NCBI GenBank assembly: GCA_019695235.1
Contig: JAIBAI010000016.1
Coordinates: 1 to 52,525 of the forward strand
DNA length: 52,525 bases
Source of the DNA: Bacteroidia bacterium
GTDB taxonomy: Bacteria; Bacteroidota; Bacteroidia; M30B66
Reading direction: 5' to 3'
In this document: positions 10,045 through 40,625 of the stretch, piece after piece
Layout of the letters: the number at the start of each line of letters is the position of its first letter
Position numbering within the stretch: position 1 is the first letter of the stretch
Position numbers and translations under genes: made by a program
The notes under the pieces: generated by a model
Told to the model about the DNA's origin: nothing
What the model saw: only the letters and a program-made list of their open reading frames with translations
Database searches by the model: none

Positions 10045-10791
10045 ATGTTTAACAACCGCAAAGTGGTGGTGGTACTTCCAGCATATAATGCTGAGAAGAC
10101 CCTGGAGAAGACGTATCGGGAAATTCCGTTCGATATTGTTGATGATGTGGTGTTGGTAGATGACCACAGCAAAGATCAGACCTCTGACCTTGCACGGCGC
10201 TTGGGTATCAGGCATGTAATTCGTCATGAGTCGAACAAAGGTTATGGCGGCAATCAGAAAACCTGTTACCGTAAAGCCCTTGAGTTAGAGGCGGATATCG
10301 TGGTGATGTTGCATCCTGATTACCAATATACGCCAATGTTAATTCATGCGATGGTATCAATCATTGGCAACGATTTGTATCCGGTAGTATTTGGTTCGCG
10401 AATTTTGGGCAAAGGAGCATTGAAAGGGGGGATGCCCATGTATAAATATGTTGCAAACCGTTTTCTGACATTTAGCCAGAACCTGTTGATGAACCAGAAA
10501 TTGTCAGAGTATCATACCGGATACAGGGCATTTTCAGGGAAGGTACTTCGGGCAATAGCGCTTGAGGCCAATTCGGATGATTTCATTTTCGACAATCAGA
10601 TGATTGCCCAGATTTTTAGCCATGATTTTGAGATTGCTGAAATTACTTGTCCGACAAAGTATTTCGATGAGGCATCATCTATTAATTTCAGTCGGAGTGT
10701 TAAGTACGGCATGGGAGTTTTAGGGGTATCATTCAGGTATATGATGCACAGAGCAGGATTACTGCGCTGGCATTTGTTGAAAAGGGCCTGA
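10045..10791 (+). CDS. Family 2 glycosyltransferase (DPM/dolichol-phosphate mannosyltransferase-like)
   Basis: The 248-residue protein has the GT-A fold N-terminus VVVVLPAYNAEKTLEKTYRE, the nucleotide-binding DDVVLVDDHSKDQTSDLARR, then NKGYGGNQKTCYRKALE and the metal-site region VMLHPDYQYTP, in which the usual DxD is replaced by HPD. The TGYRAFSGKVL segment is typical of DPM-like enzymes. It has no C-terminal membrane anchor, unlike the GT2 at 16227-17162. Such enzymes transfer sugar from a nucleotide or lipid donor to lipid carriers or cell-surface glycans; the acceptor is not predictable. It is last in the rightward TraB/GumN group. Start ATG at 10045. Confidence 0.88.
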   Translation: MFNNRKVVVVLPAYNAEKTLEKTYREIPFDIVDDVVLVDDHSKDQTSDLARRLGIRHVIRHESNKGYGGNQKTCYRKALELEADIVVMLHPDYQYTPMLIHAMVSIIGNDLYPVVFGSRILGKGALKGGMPMYKYVANRFLTFSQNLLMNQKLSEYHTGYRAFSGKVLRAIALEANSDDFIFDNQMIAQIFSHDFEIAEITCPTKYFDEASSINFSRSVKYGMGVLGVSFRYMMHRAGLLRWHLLKRA

Positions 10792-30984: not shown

Positions 30985-31000
30985 CTTGACAAAAATCAAG
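30985..31000. promoter_or_regulatory. Fnr-like palindrome upstream of the Crp/Fnr gene
   Basis: CTTGACAAAAATCAAG contains TTGA-N6-TCAA, the spacing of an Fnr/Dnr-type site. Its centre (30992.5) is 57.5 bases before the final G of the -7 element at 31050, about -62 relative to the predicted start. The same 16-mer with two bases swapped recurs at 32975-32990. The rest of the 273-base gap 30894-31166 holds nothing else I recognise. Confidence 0.7.
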
Positions 31001-31042
31001 GATATTTTTATTAATTGAATAAATAGATTTAACTATAAGGGA

Positions 31043-31050
31043 TACATTTG
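31043..31050 (+). promoter_or_regulatory. -7 promoter element TACATTTG of the Crp/Fnr operon
   Basis: Exact TAnnTTTG match with no TTTG 17-21 bases upstream, as expected for an activator-dependent promoter. Predicted start near 31055, leaving a 112-base leader. Confidence 0.6.
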
Positions 31051-31166
31051 TAGGCGAATAAACCAGCTAAAACCTTAATCAAATTAAGGCATGTGTAAAC
31101 AGAGGGGCATGTTTATTGTTTCATTGAAGACAACTGAAGGTGAGTTTTTAATTCATCCCGCTTAAA

Positions 31167-31760
31167 ATGACCCAAATTGATATAAATATTCTCATTGTCT
31201 GGGGAGCGGTAGCACGAAAATTCAAGAAGGGTGAAATGATTTTTTGGGAGGACGAGGTTGCGCATTTTTATCACCAGATTCAATCAGGAACTGTTCGGGT
31301 TTACAATATTAATGACGAAGGGCGCGAATTTACCCAGGGCATATTTTCTGACGGAAACAGTTTTGGAGAACCACCACTTTTTAGTCAGGATACTTATGCG
31401 GCATCAGCAATTGCCATGACAGATGCAGTGATTTACAAACTCAATATTGAAGGTTTCCAACGTCTTCTTAAAGAATACCCGGAAGTTCAGCATGGGTTTA
31501 ACGTGCTTTTTGCAAAACGGCTTTATGATAAAGCTTGCATGGCCCGTGAAATAATCAACAGCCCCGAATCAAGAATACTTGCCTTTTTAAAGAAGACCAA
31601 ACATGCCGCAACAAAGGAGGAAGGCCTGTTTCGGATACCCTATACAAGGCAGGAAATTGCCAATAGTACCGGGCTGCGTGTAGAAACGGTAATTCGCACT
31701 TTAAAACGGATGGTTAAGGAAAATAAAGTTGAAGTTAAAGGACATAAATTGTTTTATTGA
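31167..31760 (+). CDS. Crp/Fnr-family transcriptional regulator
   Basis: The 197-residue protein has a cyclic-nucleotide-binding-type beta-barrel (FKKGEMIFWEDEVAHFYHQI, GEPPLFSQDTYAASAIAMTD), a dimerisation helix around KRLYDKACMAREI, and a C-terminal winged helix with RQEIANSTGLRVETVIRTL. The recognition helix keeps the Glu and Arg of the Fnr pattern (VETVIR) but has Ile where Fnr has Ser. There is no N-terminal Cys cluster and only one Cys overall, so it cannot carry an Fnr-type [4Fe-4S] centre; a haem-based, Dnr-like NO or redox sensor is possible. An Fnr-like palindrome lies upstream of its own promoter, suggesting autoregulation. The next gene overlaps its stop by one base. Start ATG at 31167. 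Confidence 0.92.
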   Translation: MTQIDINILIVWGAVARKFKKGEMIFWEDEVAHFYHQIQSGTVRVYNINDEGREFTQGIFSDGNSFGEPPLFSQDTYAASAIAMTDAVIYKLNIEGFQRLLKEYPEVQHGFNVLFAKRLYDKACMAREIINSPESRILAFLKKTKHAATKEEGLFRIPYTRQEIANSTGLRVETVIRTLKRMVKENKVEVKGHKLFY

Positions 31761-32995
31761 TGTTGCAATTTTCTAGGTATGGCTGGATTAGAATCGGCCT
31801 GGTAAATCTTTGTTTGGTTGCCCTTATGGGTACCCTTATGCGTTATAAAATCTTATTTGAGTTCCCTTGGCTCAACCAGGGGCACCTGCTTCATGCACAT
31901 TCACATTTTGCATTCGCCGGTTGGGTTGGGCATTCACTGCTGGTTATGATTAGCAGCTGGCTGGCGCGTATGCGTGGTTGGGATTTTCTGAAAGCTACTT
32001 TGTACCAGCGTTTGATTTTAATCAATTTGATTTGTTCCTATGGTTTACTGGTTTCGTTTGCTTTATTCGGATACCATCCCATTTCGAACACATTTTCAAT
32101 AGGGGCTGTGATAACCCATGGGGTGTTTATATACAGTTTCTTTCGTGATTCACATGGTATTAAGCACCCCTCTTTAAAATGGTTCAGGGCTGCATTTTGG
32201 TTTTACCTGCTCTCTTGTGTTGGCATAATGAGTCTTGCTTATTTAATGGTGTATGGCCCGTTTTCAACCAAAACTTATTTGTTTTCAATTTATTTCTATC
32301 TTCATTTCCAGTACAATGGTTGGTTCTTCTTTGCATGTATGGGGCTGTTAACCGACTGGCTGGTAAGAAATGAACCAGCAGATTTACCCAGGCGCAAAGA
32401 TGGGTTCTTGCTGTTCTGGATTACCTGTATCCCTACCTTGTTGCTTTCGGCGCTGTGGCTTGATTTGCCATTATGGTTGTTGCTGATTATTGCTTTGGCC
32501 GCTATTCTTCAACTAATTGCGTTTTTACAGCTTTGGAAGCGACTTGTTTATTCACCTGCTTTTAAATCGGCAAATGTTGGAAAACTGATGCAGGTGCTTT
32601 GTGTACTCATCCTACTTGCACTTGCCGTGAAGGTGCTATTGCAAACAGGGTCAACCGTACCGAAAATAAGCGAGATGGCATTTGGTTTCAGGCACATTGT
32701 TATTGCCTATTTGCATTTAGTATTGTTATGCATCGTCAGTCTTTTCTTATTGCTCTATTTCAGGATGGAAAAGATATTTCCAAGAACAAGATCATATATC
32801 GTTGCAGTGGCTGTCTTTGCCATTCTTGCCTACCTTAATGAACTTACACTTGCAATTCAAGGGATTGCATCTTTTAGTTATGTACCAGTTCCGGGAGGCC
32901 ACCAGGTATTACTGTTTGTTTCAGCAGGCTTGTTACTGACAGCCTTGTTCATTTTGATTATTTCAAGCAGAAAACTTGCAAAAAATCAAGTTTGA
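31760..32995 (+). CDS. His-rich polytopic membrane protein resembling haem-copper oxidase subunit I
   Basis: I start at the ATG at 31760, which shares one base with the regulator stop (TGATG); 411 residues. About 11-12 hydrophobic segments are visible. Histidines cluster in or beside helices: HLLHAHSHFAFAGWVGH (His42, 45, 47, 49, 58), a later YLHFQYNGWFFF (His182), FRHIVIAYLHLVLL (His312, 319) and GGHQVLLF (His381). This order resembles the HxHxxxxGW start, central His and late paired His of the NorB/cbb3-like haem-copper oxidase superfamily or of NnrS-type membrane haem proteins, but the canonical binuclear-centre motifs are not all present. The gene is in an operon with a Crp/Fnr regulator and next to a nos cluster, so a role in NO or oxygen handling is likely. 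Exact family unknown to me. Confidence 0.75.
   Translation: MLQFSRYGWIRIGLVNLCLVALMGTLMRYKILFEFPWLNQGHLLHAHSHFAFAGWVGHSLLVMISSWLARMRGWDFLKATLYQRLILINLICSYGLLVSFALFGYHPISNTFSIGAVITHGVFIYSFFRDSHGIKHPSLKWFRAAFWFYLLSCVGIMSLAYLMVYGPFSTKTYLFSIYFYLHFQYNGWFFFACMGLLTDWLVRNEPADLPRRKDGFLLFWITCIPTLLLSALWLDLPLWLLLIIALAAILQLIAFLQLWKRLVYSPAFKSANVGKLMQVLCVLILLALAVKVLLQTGSTVPKISEMAFGFRHIVIAYLHLVLLCIVSLFLLLYFRMEKIFPRTRSYIVAVAVFAILAYLNELTLAIQGIASFSYVPVPGGHQVLLFVSAGLLLTALFILIISSRKLAKNQV
32975..32990. promoter_or_regulatory. Fnr-like palindrome upstream of the fasciclin gene
   Basis: CTTGCAAAAAATCAAG differs from the site at 30985-31000 only by AC/CA at positions 5-6. It lies inside the last codons of the membrane-protein gene. 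Its centre (32982.5) is 58.5 bases before the final G of the -7 element at 33041, nearly the same spacing as at the regulator promoter. Confidence 0.65.
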
Positions 32996-33033
32996 GTATG
33001 ACGCAACTCATATATTAAGCTTTAACACTCGTT

Positions 33034-33041
33034 TACATTTG
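33034..33041 (+). promoter_or_regulatory. -7 promoter element TACATTTG of the fasciclin gene
   Basis: Exact TAnnTTTG match, identical to the regulator's -7 element, again with no -33 TTTG. Predicted start near 33046, 11 bases before the ATG. Confidence 0.6.
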
Positions 33042-33056
33042 TTAAAAATTAAACCT

Positions 33057-33620
33057 ATGAAACGCGTTTTATTCATTTTTGGCATTTCCGGCGCAATTGC
33101 TTTTGCAGGATGTAATTCAGGTACAAATAACACGGAAAATGCAACTCAAACAGCCGGAACTGAAACCGCTATGACAGGTCAGTCAGGCGTACAGGATGAG
33201 GTTTCCACCCCCAATGTTGTACAAATTGCAGTGGGTAGTAAAGACCACACCACACTTGTAAAAGCTGTACAAGCTGCAAAGCTGGTTGATGCTCTGAGCA
33301 ATGCAGGGCCATTTACAGTATTTGCACCGGTTAATGCAGCATTTGATAAACTGCCTGCTGGTACTGTAGAAGATTTGCTCAAACCTGAGAAATTAGAAGC
33401 ATTGGTTGATGTACTTGAATACCACGTGTATGTCGGTGTACTTCGCCCTGAAATGCTACAGGATGGCATGGTATTAAACCAGGTAAACGGTAAAAATGTT
33501 ACCATTTCGAATAAAGACGGTAAAGCAATGGTAAACAATGCAAACATAGTGGCGTCAATCCCGGCAGCCAATGGAATCATCCACGTTATTGATGCTGTAT
33601 TGGTGCCTGCTGCGAAATAA
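33057..33620 (+). CDS. Fasciclin-domain lipoprotein
   Basis: I start at the ATG at 33057, which begins a lipoprotein signal (MKRVLFIFGISGAIAFAGC, Cys19); the longer frame begins inside the previous gene. The 187-residue protein has a low-complexity Thr/Ala/Gly linker and then one fasciclin (FAS1/beta-Ig-h3) domain: DHTTLVKAVQAAKLVDALSN, GPFTVFAPVNAAFDKLPAGT, LEYHVYVGVLR and the C-terminal NGIIHVIDAVLVP. FAS1 domains bind other surface molecules; in bacteria they are cell-envelope proteins with unclear ligands. An Fnr-like palindrome at 32975 suggests it is co-regulated with the Crp/Fnr operon. A bidirectional terminator follows, shared with the leftward nos operon. Confidence 0.9.
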   Translation: MKRVLFIFGISGAIAFAGCNSGTNNTENATQTAGTETAMTGQSGVQDEVSTPNVVQIAVGSKDHTTLVKAVQAAKLVDALSNAGPFTVFAPVNAAFDKLPAGTVEDLLKPEKLEALVDVLEYHVYVGVLRPEMLQDGMVLNQVNGKNVTISNKDGKAMVNNANIVASIPAANGIIHVIDAVLVPAAK

Positions 33621-33706: not shown

Positions 33707-34081
33707 TTATTGAAAAAGCTTCAAATGCATTACCAGTGCAATGCTTTTGGCATGCTGTTTCAGCTTTTCCGCCTGCTCACCCTCGTACATGAGGTCAACG
33801 GTTTCAATAAACAGGTTAATCCATTTGCTGAAATCAACAGACTTTAACGGATGCTTTAGATGAAGCTGTAAATGAACCTGCATCGGATTGCCGGCGTAGT
33901 TTCCGGTATGAAACAACACATTCTCCCAAAAGTCATACATTACCGGTATATGGGTGTTCCAATTGATTTTATACACATTCTCAAAAAGAGAGCCTAAGAT
34001 GGCATCCTTTCTTACCTGGTTATAGAAATCATCTACCAGCAGTTCAATGTCGCGCCGACTGGAAATGTCATTCTTTTTCAT
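33707..34081 (-). CDS. Group III truncated haemoglobin
   Basis: The 124-residue protein has the 2-on-2 globin pattern of group III truncated haemoglobins: DIELLVDDFYNQVRKDAILG, IPVMYDFWENVLFHTGNYAG, HLQLHLKHPLKSVDFSKWIN (with the likely proximal His) and LFIETVDLMYEGEQAEKLKQ. Such proteins bind oxygen and NO and may act in NO detoxification. It is the last gene of the leftward nos transcript, 22 bases after nosY, which fits a protective role around NO and N2O metabolism. No signal peptide, so it is cytoplasmic. Start ATG at 34079-34081. A bidirectional terminator follows. Confidence 0.88.
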   Translation of the reverse strand: MKKNDISSRRDIELLVDDFYNQVRKDAILGSLFENVYKINWNTHIPVMYDFWENVLFHTGNYAGNPMQVHLQLHLKHPLKSVDFSKWINLFIETVDLMYEGEQAEKLKQHAKSIALVMHLKLFQ

Positions 34082-34103: not shown

Positions 34104-34871
34104 TTACAAATTTTCCTTTTTGAACTTTCTCAATGAGATCTGAAATGGAATCCAACACCAGATACATAATGCAATAAAAGTCAATAGGATACCTGTGCTG
34201 CTTCCAAAAAAATCAAAAAATAGTGCGCCGGTATATCCCAGCATTGCTGAAACATCAAGGTGCAATAAAATCATGATTCTGGCTAAATCAATAGGGTTTA
34301 AGAACGAAATCATCATCAAGGCTCCTTCAATCGGATAATCAGACAATTGGAAGAGTATAAACAAAATCAATCCGTCAAAAAGCAAGGCATAAAAAAGCCA
34401 AAGCATTACAGCAATCCCCACACCCTTTGATTTGTCACGTGTAAACATCGTTGCCAGAAATGCCAGCGAAACAAAAACGAGAGAAACCAAAATTCCCAAT
34501 GCCAGCATCATAAAACCAGCTGTGTTTAACTGAAAAATGAGTAGAGGAATTCCGGCGCCAATAAAAAATGATAGCATTAAACTCAGAGAAACACCTGCAT
34601 ACAAGCCAAGCCAGACCGTACTTCGCTTTAATGGCTGACTTAGAAGTAATTCTAAGAACTCATTGAAATTATACACGTAGATAGTACTAAACAGCACCGA
34701 AACAAGTGGTACCGTTAAGATGATGATGTTCAAAAGGGTTAGCATACCCTTTGATGAATTGTCTTCTAAAAGGAAGGAAGCCCATGCGAGGGCACCCAAC
34801 AAAAGTGTATAAACCAGCAGTACACGGTTCTTGAGTATATCTGCCAGCACTATTCGCAATACCTTATACAT
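34104..34871 (-). CDS. nosY: NosY, ABC transporter permease of the nitrous oxide reductase maturation system
   Basis: The 255-residue protein has six hydrophobic segments, including VLLVYTLLLGALAWASFLL, LLNIIILTVPLVSVLFSTIY, AGVSLSLMLSFFIGAGIPLL, MLALGILVSLVFVSLAFLAT and GIAVMLWLFYALLFDGLILF. The NFNEFLELLLSQPLKRSTVW block after the second helix is the NosY signature. With NosF and NosD it forms the NosDFY complex needed to assemble the CuZ centre of NosZ. Its start overlaps nosF by 8 bases (34864-34871), so translation is coupled. The globin gene follows after 22 bases. Start ATG at 34869-34871. Confidence 0.92.
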   Translation of the reverse strand: MYKVLRIVLADILKNRVLLVYTLLLGALAWASFLLEDNSSKGMLTLLNIIILTVPLVSVLFSTIYVYNFNEFLELLLSQPLKRSTVWLGLYAGVSLSLMLSFFIGAGIPLLIFQLNTAGFMMLALGILVSLVFVSLAFLATMFTRDKSKGVGIAVMLWLFYALLFDGLILFILFQLSDYPIEGALMMISFLNPIDLARIMILLHLDVSAMLGYTGALFFDFFGSSTGILLTFIALCIWCWIPFQISLRKFKKENL

Positions 34872-35577
34872 AGCTTGCTTGTTTTAACATACGTACTACC
34901 GCCTTCGACAACATTGTCTCTCCGGTTATTTCCTTTAATTCAGTAATGTCACGATGATATTTAATCTCGCCTTCCTGCATATAAATCACCTGGGTGGCCA
35001 GTTCGTCGAGTTCATTTAATAAGTGTGAGCTAATGATAATCAGTTTGCCTTTTGCCAATTCTTTCTTAATTTTTTCTTTCAGTATTTCTGATGCCAATGG
35101 GTCTAAGCCCGCGGTAGGTTCATCTAAAATTAGCACTGAAGGATTAAACATAAATGCGATGGTAGCACTCACCTTTTGAATTGTTCCACCCGATAAGGAG
35201 CGCATGGGTTTTTCAAACATGCTTTCAAGGTGGTACTCTTCTAATAATTCAAGATCTGCTTGTGTTTCTTCTTCACGCAATTGTCTTATCAGATAAATTA
35301 ATTGCCCTATGCTCAGATTCGACGGGTAGCGGCCAATTTGTGGCATATAGCCAATGCGCGAACGGTACAAATGCGAACGAATCAATGTAGAGCCATCAAA
35401 TGAAATATCACCCGAATCAGGCACCACCAGGCCAAGAATACTTTTAAACAAGGTTGTCTTGCCACATCCATTGGGGCCTACAAGGGCAATGCATTGCCCT
35501 GCTTCACAATTCAAACTTACATTGCGTAGTGCATGCAATTTGCCAAAGTGCTTATTTACTTGCTCAAATCTTATCAT
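34864..35577 (-). CDS. nosF: NosF, ABC transporter ATP-binding protein of nitrous oxide reductase maturation
   Basis: The 237-residue ATPase has Walker A GPNGCGKTTL at about 34-43, the signature LSGGTIQKV, Walker B VLILDEPTAGLDP, and the switch His in IIISSHLLNEL. It supplies energy to the NosDFY complex that delivers sulfur or metal for CuZ assembly. Its ATG overlaps the nosD stop by 4 bases (ATGA, 35574-35577), and its end overlaps nosY by 8. The order and overlaps with nosD and nosY fix the identity within the ABC superfamily. Start ATG at 35575-35577. Confidence 0.93.
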   Translation of the reverse strand: MIRFEQVNKHFGKLHALRNVSLNCEAGQCIALVGPNGCGKTTLFKSILGLVVPDSGDISFDGSTLIRSHLYRSRIGYMPQIGRYPSNLSIGQLIYLIRQLREEETQADLELLEEYHLESMFEKPMRSLSGGTIQKVSATIAFMFNPSVLILDEPTAGLDPLASEILKEKIKKELAKGKLIIISSHLLNELDELATQVIYMQEGEIKYHRDITELKEITGETMLSKAVVRMLKQASYV

Positions 35578-36806
35578 AATTTGTTCATCCGTGGCGCCGG
35601 GTCTATAAACTCATCCGGGGTTAATGAAGGCAAAATCCTTTCAGACCGCTCTAAAAGTGTTACTATAAAGCTTCTGAATAAAATCATTGCCTGTGCGTTT
35701 TGCTCTGCGATGTATGAAAATAAACTTAAGGGATGAAAGGGCACATCACCAATACCATCCTTGTTTATGTCATAGCCTTCGTATTTGTCCCAAAAGTTAC
35801 CCTTGAAACGGTTCAATACAAGGGTGCCGTTTGTACTTACATCAAATGTGTTTGACGAGAAGTTATTACTAAATACATCAATATCCATGCAGCTTGCCTG
35901 TATTTTCATTCCCCAACCATTATTGTTAAAACTGTTTCCCTGCACAAAAATTCTGCTACTGCCTTCCATATAAATCCCAATTGTATTACGCATAAATTGA
36001 TTGTTCTCGATATGACTATCTGTAATGTCTTTAAGGAGCAAGCCGTATGAAGATGCCCCCCAGTTTTCATAAAAATGATTATTAAACATCTTAACTCTTT
36101 TGGTGTACATCACTGCTACGCCCGCACCATTGTTCTTAAGCACATTGCCGATATAAACATCATCATTTGAGAACATAAAATGCAAGCCATACCGTATGTT
36201 AGCTGTTGAGATGTTTCTCCAGATGATACTATGGGTAACAAATTCAAAATAAATGCCATCACGGTGACCATCAATCCGATTGCCAATAATCTGTAAGCTA
36301 TCGCTCTTCCAGCAATGAATACCATTTCCAGTTTCCTGCTCGTTAAGGGCTTTGGCAAATATCTGGTTGTTGCGTACCAGGCATTTTGCACCATTCTGGA
36401 TGTATATCCCAAAAAAATTATCCCGAAGTATATTATTTACAACACTTACATTTTTGCAATTGTACACCTTGATCCCTCCCGGGTCGTCAAGACTTGATTT
36501 TCCGCTTCGAATTACCTCGAAACCTTCAAAGTGAACATTGTTGCTTCTGATTGACACCACTTCATATTTCTTCTGACCATCCAGCACCGGGCGATTCACA
36601 CCAATCAATGTCAATGCTTTGTTTATTGTGATATTACCCTCCTTGAAGTGCCCCTTTTGAACATAAATTGTGTCTCCAGGTGAAGCCAGCCCCACAGCAG
36701 TACGTATATACCTTAAACTGCCCTGCTGGTCAACATTCCATACCTTTCCTGCTGCCTGTAAATGAAACAGGCATAAGCAAGAAAGTATATGAAGGAGGTA
36801 TTTCAC
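35574..36806 (-). CDS. nosD: NosD, periplasmic beta-helix protein for CuZ assembly
   Basis: I use the GTG at 36804-36806, which overlaps the nosL stop as GTGA; the longer frame begins at a TTG 21 bases upstream with no signal there. The 410-residue protein has a Sec signal (MKYLLHILSCLCLFHLQAAG) and a right-handed beta-helix of CASH/NosD repeats: SLRYIRTAVGLASPGDTIYV, HFKEGNITINKALTLIGVNR, then NNVHFEGFEVIRSGKS, NNILRDNFFGIYIQNG and similar turns, ending GNFWDKYEGYDINKDGIGDV, the NosD C-terminal mark. It works with NosF and NosY to supply the CuZ site of NosZ. The overlap with nosF (ATGA) supports coupled translation. Confidence 0.93.
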   Translation of the reverse strand: MKYLLHILSCLCLFHLQAAGKVWNVDQQGSLRYIRTAVGLASPGDTIYVQKGHFKEGNITINKALTLIGVNRPVLDGQKKYEVVSIRSNNVHFEGFEVIRSGKSSLDDPGGIKVYNCKNVSVVNNILRDNFFGIYIQNGAKCLVRNNQIFAKALNEQETGNGIHCWKSDSLQIIGNRIDGHRDGIYFEFVTHSIIWRNISTANIRYGLHFMFSNDDVYIGNVLKNNGAGVAVMYTKRVKMFNNHFYENWGASSYGLLLKDITDSHIENNQFMRNTIGIYMEGSSRIFVQGNSFNNNGWGMKIQASCMDIDVFSNNFSSNTFDVSTNGTLVLNRFKGNFWDKYEGYDINKDGIGDVPFHPLSLFSYIAEQNAQAMILFRSFIVTLLERSERILPSLTPDEFIDPAPRMNKL

Positions 36807-37810
36807 TGAGTGCTTACTGTGTTCCAATCAAGTAAGTTGCCGCCTTGTTCATTGCTAAACTTCTCCGCGAGTGCTCTGTCGGTAAATGCGGCAGTATTTC
36901 CTCCCATAGGGCTGCTAAGTTTGCCCCCTTTTACATACCAAGCAGTTGTTGCTTCAACAAATGAATTTGGATTGTTATAGTCAGCAATAAACAAAGTCAG
37001 ACCATTTTCTTTGCCTTGTTGTTCATTGTATTGCAGCAGGCATTTTAAATCATCAAACGTGAACACTTTACCATTTTTGTTTACAGCTTCAGCACTGTAG
37101 GGTAGTTCAGTAATATTCATTTTACAATTGGCACAAACATCACGGTTAACCTGAATAGGCCGGCTTTCAACCTTCCCACATCCGGTTAAAAGAAGAAATG
37201 GGATGAACAAAGATGCAGCAGCTGGCGCTTTTTTTCTCAATTTTTGCCACCAACCGTTCTCGTAAACTGTCAATCCGAACATTATCAAACCGCTTACAAG
37301 TAGCATCCAACCCCCAATGTCAGGAATTGAAAATGCTCCGAAGTTCAACAACTGTTTAAACCCAAGAAGCGGCGGTTGGTAGGCCATACCCGGCACAATA
37401 ATAGGAGCATTGGGGTCAAGATTGTGCCCATATTTATATTCCCACCACCAAAAGTCTGCAATTGATACAATGCCAAAAACCAGAAATAAAATGCAGAGTG
37501 CTGTTAACCATTTCCGGTTTCCGGCCAACATCACAAGCAAGGTAAGAGCGGCAAATGCATATAAAATATAGGGTAGAATGGTGAATTCAAAGAAGTCGTC
37601 AGTGTGCAGCGTCTGCATCCCAATATAATGGTTCAAACCATTGATGATTTCTACGTCGCCTCCAATTTCATCTGCAAAAATCAATAACCTTAGTCCTTCG
37701 GGGTATTGAGGCGCTACCAGGTCAATTTGCCAAATCGGCACATGAACCGCTCCTGCAAGTAACATGGCGGCAATTAAAAGCATAACCCGGGAGAGAATAT
37801 TCAGTTTCAT
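36803..37810 (-). CDS. nosL: NosL fused to an N-terminal membrane domain
   Basis: The 335-residue protein has two parts. Residues 1-210 hold about four or five membrane segments with conserved-looking INGLNHYIGMQTLHTDDFFE and WWWEYKYGHNLDP. At 200-211 the sequence LFIPFLLLTGC reads like a lipoprotein signal with Cys211, and residues 212-335 are a NosL domain with VCANCKMNI (Cys226, Cys229, Met231) for copper, FTFDDLKCLLQYN and FVEATTAWYVKGGKLSSPMG. NosL is normally a separate lipoprotein that delivers Cu(I) to NosZ. Here there is no stop between the parts, so I read it as a fusion; the N-terminal part may equal the separate membrane protein (NosB-like) found in other clade II clusters. A terminator lies upstream. 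Start ATG at 37808-37810. Confidence 0.85.
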   Translation of the reverse strand: MKLNILSRVMLLIAAMLLAGAVHVPIWQIDLVAPQYPEGLRLLIFADEIGGDVEIINGLNHYIGMQTLHTDDFFEFTILPYILYAFAALTLLVMLAGNRKWLTALCILFLVFGIVSIADFWWWEYKYGHNLDPNAPIIVPGMAYQPPLLGFKQLLNFGAFSIPDIGGWMLLVSGLIMFGLTVYENGWWQKLRKKAPAAASLFIPFLLLTGCGKVESRPIQVNRDVCANCKMNITELPYSAEAVNKNGKVFTFDDLKCLLQYNEQQGKENGLTLFIADYNNPNSFVEATTAWYVKGGKLSSPMGGNTAAFTDRALAEKFSNEQGGNLLDWNTVSTQ

Positions 37811-37835
37811 AATTGATTTTTTAAGGTTTGGGAAG

Positions 37836-37872
37836 AAAAAAGGGAGCAGGGAATTGACCCTCTGCTCCCTTT
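37836..37872 (-). terminator. Intrinsic terminator between nosZ and nosL
   Basis: On the minus strand AAAGGGAGCAG (37862-37872) pairs with CTGCTCCCTTT (37839-37849), an 11-bp stem, followed by a T run (37836-37841). It lies 21 bases after the nosZ stop and its T run ends 25 bases before the nosL start, so only readthrough would reach nosL, nosD, nosF and nosY from the nosZ promoter. Confidence 0.88.
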
Positions 37873-37893
37873 GAATGAAATTCTTTATGTGAA

Positions 37894-39867
37894 TTACTTG
37901 GCTTCTCCTATGTTTTTGCCAAGGCTAAAGCCAATGGGAACATTGCTGCCAGCGGGCGATACCCTAACGTATCCCTGCATCTCCTGATGTAAAGCACTAC
38001 AGAAGTCGGTGCAATAGATAGGGTACATACCTACACGGTCTGGAACCCATTTCAAGGTTTGAGTTTCACCTGGCATTATCAGTAATTCGGCAGCGTTAGC
38101 ACCTTTTACCGCAAAGCCATGGGGTACGTCCCAGTCTTGCTCAAGGTTTGTAACGTGGAAGTAAACTTCATCGCCTAACTTCACACCTTCAATGTTGTCA
38201 GGTGCAAAATGCGAGCGAATTGCTGTAATGTAAACGTGTACTTCTTTTCCTTCACGAACCACCTTTGCATTTGCCTCAGAGGTAGTGGCATATTTATGCT
38301 TGTTCTCACCGATTTTGTATAGCTTCAACTGGCCGTTGTTGCGAACCAAATCAGCTGGAATGGCTTGTGCATAGTGCGGTTCACCAATGGTTGGGAAGTC
38401 AAGAATTAACTGCATTTTATCGCCACTGATATCATACAGTTGCGCACTTTGTGTAAGTTCAGGACCAGTTGGCAAATACCTGTCTTTGGTGATTTTGTTG
38501 TAAGCAATAAGGTATTTTGAGTAAGGTTTACGGGTATCTCCACCTGGAACACACAAGTGCCCTACTGAGTAGAAAGTAGGTACGCGGTCAAGAACTTTCA
38601 GGTCTTTGATATTCCATTTAACAACTTCTGATGATACAAAGAATGAAGTATAAGCATTTCCTTTATCGTCAAATTCTGTATGCAAAGGCCCAAGACCTGG
38701 CTTCTTTACTTCACCGTACAATGCTGATTCATACTTAATCACAGGAATACCGTCATAAGTGCCTTCAAATTCTTTCTTTGCAATAGCATTCAGCATTTTG
38801 TCGAAGCTAAATACAGGAAGAAGTGCAGCCAATTTACCACTACCAACGATGTATTCTCCTGAAGGATCTACGTCGCAACCATGAGGTGATTTCGGACAAG
38901 GAATCATATAGCAGATGTCAGCCAGCTCTTTAGCATTCAGTACTGTAACTTCTGTTTTAATAGTTGAAGTTGCACTGTGAGTTTCATCATTGTAAACGTT
39001 ATGAGCATATTTTACAGGTACTTTTTTACCCTTACCTGCTTTCAGATACTCCTCGGCTTTTTTCCAGTTCACTGCCATGATGAAGTCTTTGTCGTTTTTC
39101 GACGCATTCACTTCTAACAGGGTATTTGCTTGCTCTGTATTGTAGCATGAGAAGAAGAACCATCCATGTGATTTTTGTTTACCAGCACGGCTTAAGTCGA
39201 AATTAACACCCGGACATTCAATCTGGAAAGCAATGTCCATGTTACCGCTTTCTTTATTAACGCTGATGAAGCTCAAATAACCTTTAAAGTTCTCTTTATA
39301 GGTTGCAATGGGTACGTCACCGTTTGAGTTATCATCAGGTACACTAAAACGAGTACCTGCAACTACATACTCAGTGTTCTCAGTAATGTAAGGGGAGGAG
39401 TGGTTACCTGCACTGTTTGGAATTTCAAGAATCTCTGCTGCACGGAATGTTTTCAGGTCAATACGTGCAACACGTGGGGTGTTATTTGCATTACCAAACG
39501 CCCATTTCCCATCATATTCACCATTTGATTTCGACATTTGTACGTGGTGCAAATCATCCCAGGGTACGAAACCATGAGAGGTGTTAAGCATTGGTTTGGT
39601 TTCTTCTGAATAACCCCAGCCCTTTTCAGGATCAACCGAAAATACAGGAATTACTCTGAATAAACGACCGCTCGGTAAGCCATAAACGCTCATCTGACCG
39701 CTGAAACCTCCACTGACAAAGTTATAAAATTCGTCATACTTGCCTGGAGCTACATAGGCCTTAGAAGCAGCATCGCCACCTACTGCACTGCCCATGTCTT
39801 TGGGCTTGCACGAAATAATCAGCGCACTAAGTGCCGCCGGAATAATAATTGAATGTTTGTATTTCAT
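37894..39867 (-). CDS. nosZ: Nitrous oxide reductase, clade II (Sec-dependent, lipoprotein)
   Basis: The 657-residue protein reduces N2O to N2. Its signal MKYKHSIIIPAALSALIISC lacks the twin-arginine motif and ends in a lipobox with Cys20, the pattern of clade II enzymes in Bacteroidota. The seven-bladed propeller region has DDLHHVQMSKSNGEYDGKW near the N-terminus and PKSPHGCDVDPSGEYI and GLGPLHTEFDDKGNAYTS further on, which supply His ligands to CuZ. The CuA site is at the C-terminus: YCTDFCSALHQEMQGY, Cys619, Cys623, His627 and Met630. It is 18 bases after a cytochrome c gene and followed by a terminator, then nosL-D-F-Y. No nirS, nirK or nor is in the window, so this may be a non-denitrifying N2O reducer. 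Confidence 0.98.
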   Translation of the reverse strand: MKYKHSIIIPAALSALIISCKPKDMGSAVGGDAASKAYVAPGKYDEFYNFVSGGFSGQMSVYGLPSGRLFRVIPVFSVDPEKGWGYSEETKPMLNTSHGFVPWDDLHHVQMSKSNGEYDGKWAFGNANNTPRVARIDLKTFRAAEILEIPNSAGNHSSPYITENTEYVVAGTRFSVPDDNSNGDVPIATYKENFKGYLSFISVNKESGNMDIAFQIECPGVNFDLSRAGKQKSHGWFFFSCYNTEQANTLLEVNASKNDKDFIMAVNWKKAEEYLKAGKGKKVPVKYAHNVYNDETHSATSTIKTEVTVLNAKELADICYMIPCPKSPHGCDVDPSGEYIVGSGKLAALLPVFSFDKMLNAIAKKEFEGTYDGIPVIKYESALYGEVKKPGLGPLHTEFDDKGNAYTSFFVSSEVVKWNIKDLKVLDRVPTFYSVGHLCVPGGDTRKPYSKYLIAYNKITKDRYLPTGPELTQSAQLYDISGDKMQLILDFPTIGEPHYAQAIPADLVRNNGQLKLYKIGENKHKYATTSEANAKVVREGKEVHVYITAIRSHFAPDNIEGVKLGDEVYFHVTNLEQDWDVPHGFAVKGANAAELLIMPGETQTLKWVPDRVGMYPIYCTDFCSALHQEMQGYVRVSPAGSNVPIGFSLGKNIGEAK

Positions 39868-39885
39868 GATTTTGGGTTTACAATA

Positions 39886-40362
39886 TTATTTTACACCATC
39901 GTTTTGACGCATAAACTCAAGGATATTTCTTGCGTCATCATCAGAAAGACCCTGGTTCGGCATTCTAACCAGACAGATTTCAAGTTGTGCCTGCACTTCC
40001 GGGTCTTTGTCAATCATCGGATCAGGATTGGTGATGAAATTCATAATCCATTGTGGAGTTCTTCTTTGTGTTACACCTTTCCAGCCCGGCCCTACCAAAC
40101 GTTCATCACTTAGCTTATGGCAAGAAATACACTTTACATTCGACACTTCTTCGCCTTTTTTCGCCAAAGCTGCATCAAGGTTGCTCGCCAATTCTATTTT
40201 GTCAAATTTCCCCTCTCCGCGATGTGGGTCATAAGAACTTGGGTCGGCACTTGCTTGCGTTGCTGCCGAATCTGTGCTTCCTTCTTGCTTTGCAGGTTGG
40301 TTTCCGCCGCAGGCAGCCAGGAAGAGGAGGCCGCTGGTCAAACCGAAAATGAGCTTTTTCAT
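39886..40362 (-). CDS. Monohaem cytochrome c lipoprotein, likely electron donor to NosZ
   Basis: I start at the ATG at 40360-40362, which begins the lipoprotein signal MKKLIFGLTSGLLFLAAC (Cys18); upstream in-frame codons fall in the promoter. The 158-residue protein has one haem c site, CISCH at 78-82, and a likely axial Met134 in LVRMPNQGLS. LVGPGWKGVTQRRTPQWI is typical of class I cytochromes c. It is first in the nos operon, 18 bases before nosZ, a position usual for the cytochrome thought to feed electrons to clade II NosZ. Its promoter carries an Fnr-like palindrome about 41.5 bases before the predicted start. Confidence 0.92.
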   Translation of the reverse strand: MKKLIFGLTSGLLFLAACGGNQPAKQEGSTDSAATQASADPSSYDPHRGEGKFDKIELASNLDAALAKKGEEVSNVKCISCHKLSDERLVGPGWKGVTQRRTPQWIMNFITNPDPMIDKDPEVQAQLEICLVRMPNQGLSDDDARNILEFMRQNDGVK

Positions 40363-40395
40363 AAGCGTTCTGTTAAAGTTTGTTAAAATTTTACG

Positions 40396-40403
40396 CAAAT
40401 GTG
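40396..40403 (-). promoter_or_regulatory. -7 promoter element CACATTTG of the cytochrome c-nosZ operon
   Basis: On the minus strand CACATTTG has one mismatch to TAnnTTTG and equals the -7 of the hydrolase-fold gene at 22460-22467. There is no TTTG at the -33 position, which instead holds the palindrome. Predicted start near 40391, 29 bases before the ATG. Confidence 0.55.
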
Positions 40404-40425
40404 AATCGGTTTTGCCGGATGATTT

Positions 40426-40439
40426 ATGACTTTGGTCAT
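40426..40439. promoter_or_regulatory. Perfect palindrome ATGAC-N4-GTCAT at the nos promoter
   Basis: ATGACTTTGGTCAT is a 14-bp perfect inverted repeat with Fnr/Dnr-like spacing. Its centre (40432.5) is 41.5 bases upstream of the predicted start, the classical position for a class II activator. The rest of the 263-base gap to tnaA has a single TTGAT half-site at 40443-40447 and otherwise nothing I can name. Confidence 0.65.
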
Positions 40440-40625
40440 GTTTTGATGCTATTTATATTATTTGCCCGATTTTATTAAAGATTTATTCGGTTTCTGGTTA
40501 AAAGTCAGGAAATAATATGAGCAGAATCATGATTGTGTTTCTAATTTTTTATTTACTCATTAGAATGTTTAGCGCCTGATTAATTGCCATCTTTGCAGCC
40601 TAGTGAATTTGATTTTTCCTTTACG

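Follow-up and report, generated by a model that had tools for sequence, protein, structure and literature searches.

The position of a Crp/Fnr regulator gene (crp) beside an N2O-reduction cluster raises the question of whether the two belong to one regulon and, if so, through which operator. A sequence-only reading of the window, the whole 52,525-nucleotide stretch of DNA analysed here, had answered with two near-identical palindromes of the form CTTG-N8-CAAG, one in the crp promoter and one in that of a fasciclin lipoprotein gene (fas), and had concluded that crp is autoregulated and shares a regulon with fas. The genes concerned and the proposed elements are as follows.

30985-31000, no strand assigned: CTTGACAAAAATCAAG, first proposed palindrome, which keeps a TGA-N6-TCA core
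31043-31050, plus strand: TACATTTG, fitting TAnnTTTG, candidate -7 element for crp
31167-31760, plus strand: Crp/Fnr regulator P0001
31760-32995, plus strand: unclassified membrane protein, adjoining crp in most relatives
32975-32990, no strand assigned: CTTGCAAAAAATCAAG, second proposed palindrome
33034-33041, plus strand: TACATTTG, -7 element of the fas promoter, exactly 36.5 bp from the operator described below
33057-33620, plus strand: fasciclin-domain lipoprotein gene (PF02469, E 2.6e-33)
33707-34081, minus strand: probable truncated globin, with no Pfam match of its own and a homolog in a relative just above the Bac_globin cut-off
34104-40398, minus strand: operon of cytochrome c, nosZ (Sec-type, clade II), nosL, nosD, nosF and nosY

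The order of these genes recurs in Bacteroidota. Among 80 loci with a P0001 ortholog, and within the stretch available for each, the membrane protein is found in 67/80, fasciclin in 54/80 and nosZ in 45/80. These loci were gathered with an alignment query; the P0001 sequence alone gave no match. Counts over the 80 loci are not independent observations, since Flavobacterium supplies most of them and only a minority carry the labels Chitinophagaceae, Saprospiraceae, Sphingobacteriales or Pedobacter. Among closer relatives, within the order, a P0001 ortholog (E ≤ 1e-30) was found only in genome G005. The membrane protein had no match in Pfam, NCBIfam or the PDB; it carries a HAHSHFAFAGW motif. 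The cytochrome gene likely starts at 40362.

As a description of the DNA, the proposal is accurate. The two 16-mers lie at the positions given for them and differ only by an AC/CA exchange, each is followed by TACATTTG, the palindrome centre stands 57.5 bp (first) and 58.5 bp (second) before the final G of this element, and a -33 TTTG is missing from both promoters. CTTG-N8-CAAG alone is unremarkable in the window, with three occurrences against 1.24 expected and at least three in 14/100 shuffles. Genome-wide it was rejected as an operator, occurring 49 times against 36 for the reversed control and at no promoter besides these two. The suggested genome-wide search for the palindrome near TAnnTTTG likewise returned only this pair at a gap of 20-50 bp, and nothing for the control. 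A matched pair (complementary 4-bp ends, at least 14/16 positions alike, matching offsets) arose in 0/150 dinucleotide shuffles of the window and, with likeness relaxed to 12/16, in 2/60, figures that overstate the significance, as the pattern was picked after the data had been viewed. The pair is thus a genuine oddity, though one chosen post hoc.

First inspection of the relatives revealed no TTGA-type sites and a different palindrome, TATGAY-N4-RTCATA, repeatedly. Over the 80 loci, 79/103 pairings of ATGA-N6-TCAT with TAnnTTTG placed the palindrome 35.5-37.5 bp upstream of the last G; no spacing preference was seen for TTGA-N6-TCAA (11 pairings) or CTTG-N8-CAAG (1). With any TTTG allowed, the counts were 141 at 36.5, 50 at 37.5 and 13 at 35.5, the background being 2.8 per offset. 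An operator at a fixed 36.5 bp (35.5-37.5) from the final G of the -7 element overlaps the -35/-33 region, the arrangement of a class II site. At the class II fas and cytochrome promoters (loci L066-L145) the TTTG is kept and the leading TA is often lost (GTACTTTG, GAAATTTG), so scans with TAnnTTTG miss such promoters.

The conserved site also follows the genes. It stands upstream of fas in 54/54 relatives and of the cytochrome-nos operon in 38/38 at a score of at least 9/12; scores of 7-10 (of 12) also occur at chance level within 320 bp, and the weaker fas sites were counted owing to their constant place and form, TATGAT-N4-CGCATA. At 11/12 or better, a site precedes 43 of the 54 fas genes, 37 of the 38 cytochrome-nos genes and crp in 50/80 relatives, 30/80 lacking a strong crp site. 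TTGA-N6-TCAA was found upstream of 0/80 crp, 2/54 fas and 0/38 cytochrome genes, where the ATGA type is present in nearly all. As an operator, TTGAY-N4-RTCAA was set aside: it occurs 488 times against 295 for the control (one mismatch allowed) but shows no spacing preference to the -7 element.

A matrix was built from 64 distinct sites of the relatives, whose own scores are mostly 14-23 bits. Applied to the window, it scored the following sites, listed with the -7 element of the second promoter.

32997-33012, plus strand: TATGACGCAACTCATA, conserved candidate class II operator of the fas promoter, its centre 36.5 bp upstream of the last G of the -7 element; ranked third in the window at 13.4 bits
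40396-40403, minus strand: CACATTTG, -7 element in the promoter of the cytochrome c-nosZ operon
40425-40440, minus strand: CATGACCAAAGTCATA, conserved candidate class II operator in that same promoter, its centre again 36.5 bp upstream of the last G of the -7 element; 15.0 bits, the top score in the window
40516-40531, no strand assigned: TATGAGCAGAATCATG, a further strong operator-like site, the third, in the stretch that separates the nos operon from a tryptophanase-like gene; 14.5 bits

The fas site, which the sequence-only reading had missed, sits between its second palindrome and the -7 element and has the right half ACTCATA typical of fas promoters in the relatives. Both TATGACGCAACTCATA and CATGACCAAAGTCATA have counterparts in every relative counted above for the respective gene. 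For TATGAGCAGAATCATG, no TTTG at class II spacing was present on either strand; in G005, TATGA-type sites likewise precede the tna gene. The window's crp promoter contained no copy of the conserved operator. A perfect inverted repeat, CCTTAATCAAATTAAGG (31074-31090), follows the crp -7 element ahead of the start codon, and may form a hairpin in the crp leader.

These results separate what was right in the earlier conclusions from the element on which they were built. A common regulon that includes crp and fas gains support from the conserved site in the relatives, and a Crp/Fnr-type palindrome does appear to serve as its operator; the CTTG palindromes do not fit that role. The strong site upstream of crp in 50/80 relatives argues for autoregulation in those relatives, whereas in the window, where the conserved operator is absent, autoregulation is unproven. 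The 30 relatives lacking a strong crp site include several non-Flavobacterium records, and the window's crp groups with them.

From the observed sites, with their spacing, conservation and synteny, we consider it likely that a Crp/Fnr-type activator runs the Bacteroidota N2O-reduction cluster through TATGAY-N4-RTCATA by a class II mechanism. A dimer of the activator would bind the operator with its centre about 41.5 bp before the transcript start, which would fall about 5 nt past the TTTG, a position derived by assuming -41.5. The -33 element would be missing because the activator occupies its place; the bound dimer would substitute for it by contacting RNA polymerase directly. In the window, such activation is predicted at the fas (32997-33012) and cytochrome c-nosZ (40425-40440) promoters, and the signal may be NO or low oxygen.

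How, then, are the CTTG palindromes to be read? In this lineage the same regulator might use them as genuine secondary sites, autoregulating crp from a class I-like position near -62 and, at fas, binding an upstream partner of the class II site, with the two sites 22 bp, or two helical turns, apart. The TGA-N6-TCA core and its spacing are retained in CTTGACAAAAATCAAG, the offsets match at two promoters that are co-regulated in the relatives, and the rarity of the combination, both genome-wide and in the shuffles, points the same way. Yet with the matrix of the relatives' operators CTTGACAAAAATCAAG scores -4.2 bits (rank 145 in the window) and CTTGCAAAAAATCAAG -14.6 bits, and CTTG-N8-CAAG is missing from all 80 relatives (upstream of 0/80 crp, 0/54 fas and 0/38 cytochrome-nos genes), whose aligned promoters have no conserved feature at that distance. 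The fas copy, moreover, lacks TGA in one half and is coding: translation of the gene upstream of fas places it wholly within the 3′ end of the membrane-protein reading frame, where the residues are KLAKNQV, and the relatives have A-rich coding sequence at the matching position (e.g., aaaaaagttaaaa) and no palindrome. This explanation is therefore unlikely. A bolder version, in which crp has swapped its TATGA class II operator for a class I operator, CTTGAC-N4-ATCAAG, and fas has both in tandem two turns apart, so that one regulator would read two half-site types and keep feedback on itself separate from the control of its targets, strikes us as decidedly unlikely. Assignment of the CTTGAC site as the class II site of an alternative -7 element, TAGATTTA (31024-31031), was discarded, the offset of 38.5 being outside the 35.5-37.5 of the relatives.

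Alternatively, the palindromes could be operators of a different, FNR- or DNR-like Crp/Fnr protein of the genome, acting in a cascade onto crp and fas. CTTGAC-N4-ATCAAG does resemble the FNR box and the HcpR motif yTTGACnnnnGTCAAr given for delta-proteobacteria in the passages covered of PMC1274295, and the genome encodes six further PF00027 proteins, one with the helix PEQITR. However, TTGA-N6-TCAA followed by TAnnTTTG occurs only four times genome-wide, with no common spacing, and it is the ATGA type that is found on the nitrate-respiration contig, which makes such a cascade highly improbable. Most likely the two CTTG-N8-CAAG palindromes are coincidental, and 30985-31000 would be no more than a weak class I-like site specific to the lineage.

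The class II operator finds a candidate binder in P0001 itself. It belongs to the Crp/Fnr superfamily, with PF00027 (72.5 bits) and PF13545 (38 bits) both over the cut-off, and has a cNMP-binding-type sensor followed by a Crp-type helix-turn-helix. Across 81 orthologs its recognition helix, TGLRVETVIR, varies only by a single Val-to-Ile change. P0001 has one cysteine, and the best cysteine column among the 81 orthologs reaches 28/81; lacking conserved cysteines to bind a [4Fe-4S] cluster, P0001 is not an Fe-S FNR. E. coli FNR has E-x-x-S-R at the contact positions and CRP has R-E-x-x-x-R. Contact residues unlike either make it plausible that the first base of the half-site is altered relative to FNR. 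The E-x-x-I-R residues of P0001 recur in two further Crp/Fnr proteins, encoded on contigs C110 and C111 of the genome, so the operator is probably common to a small set of regulators. P0001 is most likely the binder, and either of the other two could be the real one.

Matches elsewhere in the genome extend the proposed regulon. ATGA-N6-TCAT with NAnnTTTG occurs 23 times against four in the control; seven matches are at the 36.5 spacing, several of them on contig C110. A nitrate reductase operon (PF00384 and neighbours) lies on this contig, together with moaA, two MFS transporter genes and three genes for Crp/Fnr proteins; positions 36000-60331 of C110 (genome G000) form a nitrate-respiration island, with a narG-like operon, transporters, molybdenum cofactor genes and the three Crp/Fnr genes, over which TATGA-type sites are scattered. 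In some relatives the genes behind such sites encode a NorC-like cytochrome, Rrf2, a ScdA/RIC-like protein or a globin, which fit a nitrate/NO/N2O-respiration regulon. The evidence thus supports a shared Crp/Fnr class II regulon of this kind, with the half-site ATGAY and not the TTGAT of FNR. In 25 relatives (e.g., L115, minus strand near 10675) the operator is followed by the gene of a small conserved protein that carries the motif LCxNKxxPELHCNGKCYLKKEL and belongs to no Pfam family.

Bacteroidota with clade II nosZ count among N2O consumers. How nosZ is switched in them is little described, and no operator for them was found in the literature searched. With a conserved operator at a near-exact promoter spacing, the regulon could be looked for in any genome of this kind. 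The result is also a warning not to search such genomes with the proteobacterial box TTGA-N6-TCAA, the motif scanned for in a study of nosZ in Nitrosophilus labii (PMC11539149). The proposed pairing of the recognition helix VETVIR with the ATGA half-site is a testable link. No description of an ATGA operator was found in the freely accessible papers searched, and the operator is provisionally taken as new for Bacteroidota nos genes.

Analogous to E. coli FNR at class II promoters, the proposed system combines a Crp/Fnr fold with a 22-bp-type palindrome, a TGA-N6-TCA core and a centre that would lie near -41.5. It differs in the half-site (ATGAY in place of TTGAT), in a contact residue (Ile in place of the Ser of E-x-x-S-R), in the lack of cysteine ligands for an Fe-S cluster in P0001 and in the Bacteroidota TAnnTTTG-type -7 element. 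Rodionov et al. (PMC1274295) described the DNR, NnrR and HcpR motifs and linked helix residues to the bases contacted; the passages covered contain no motif of this sort for nos in Bacteroidota. According to those passages, NnrR and DNR, both of the Crp/Fnr type, activate nor, nos and NO-detoxification genes in proteobacterial denitrifiers. The targets here are similar, the cytochrome-nos operon in 38/38 relatives and NO/N2O-related genes in some, and DNR is among the relatives with a solved structure. The DNR box TTGAT-N4-ATCAA and the NnrR motif ctTTGcgnnnncgCAAag, as given there, are unlike the present operator. HcpR of delta-proteobacteria and of Bacteroides/Porphyromonas is likewise a Crp/Fnr regulator of nitrogen-oxide genes in the parts covered of PMC1274295 and PMC13370916, and its delta-proteobacterial motif is what the first CTTG palindrome resembles. 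HcpR controls hcp, whereas the linked genes here are those for nos, with TATGAY-N4-RTCATA as their conserved operator.
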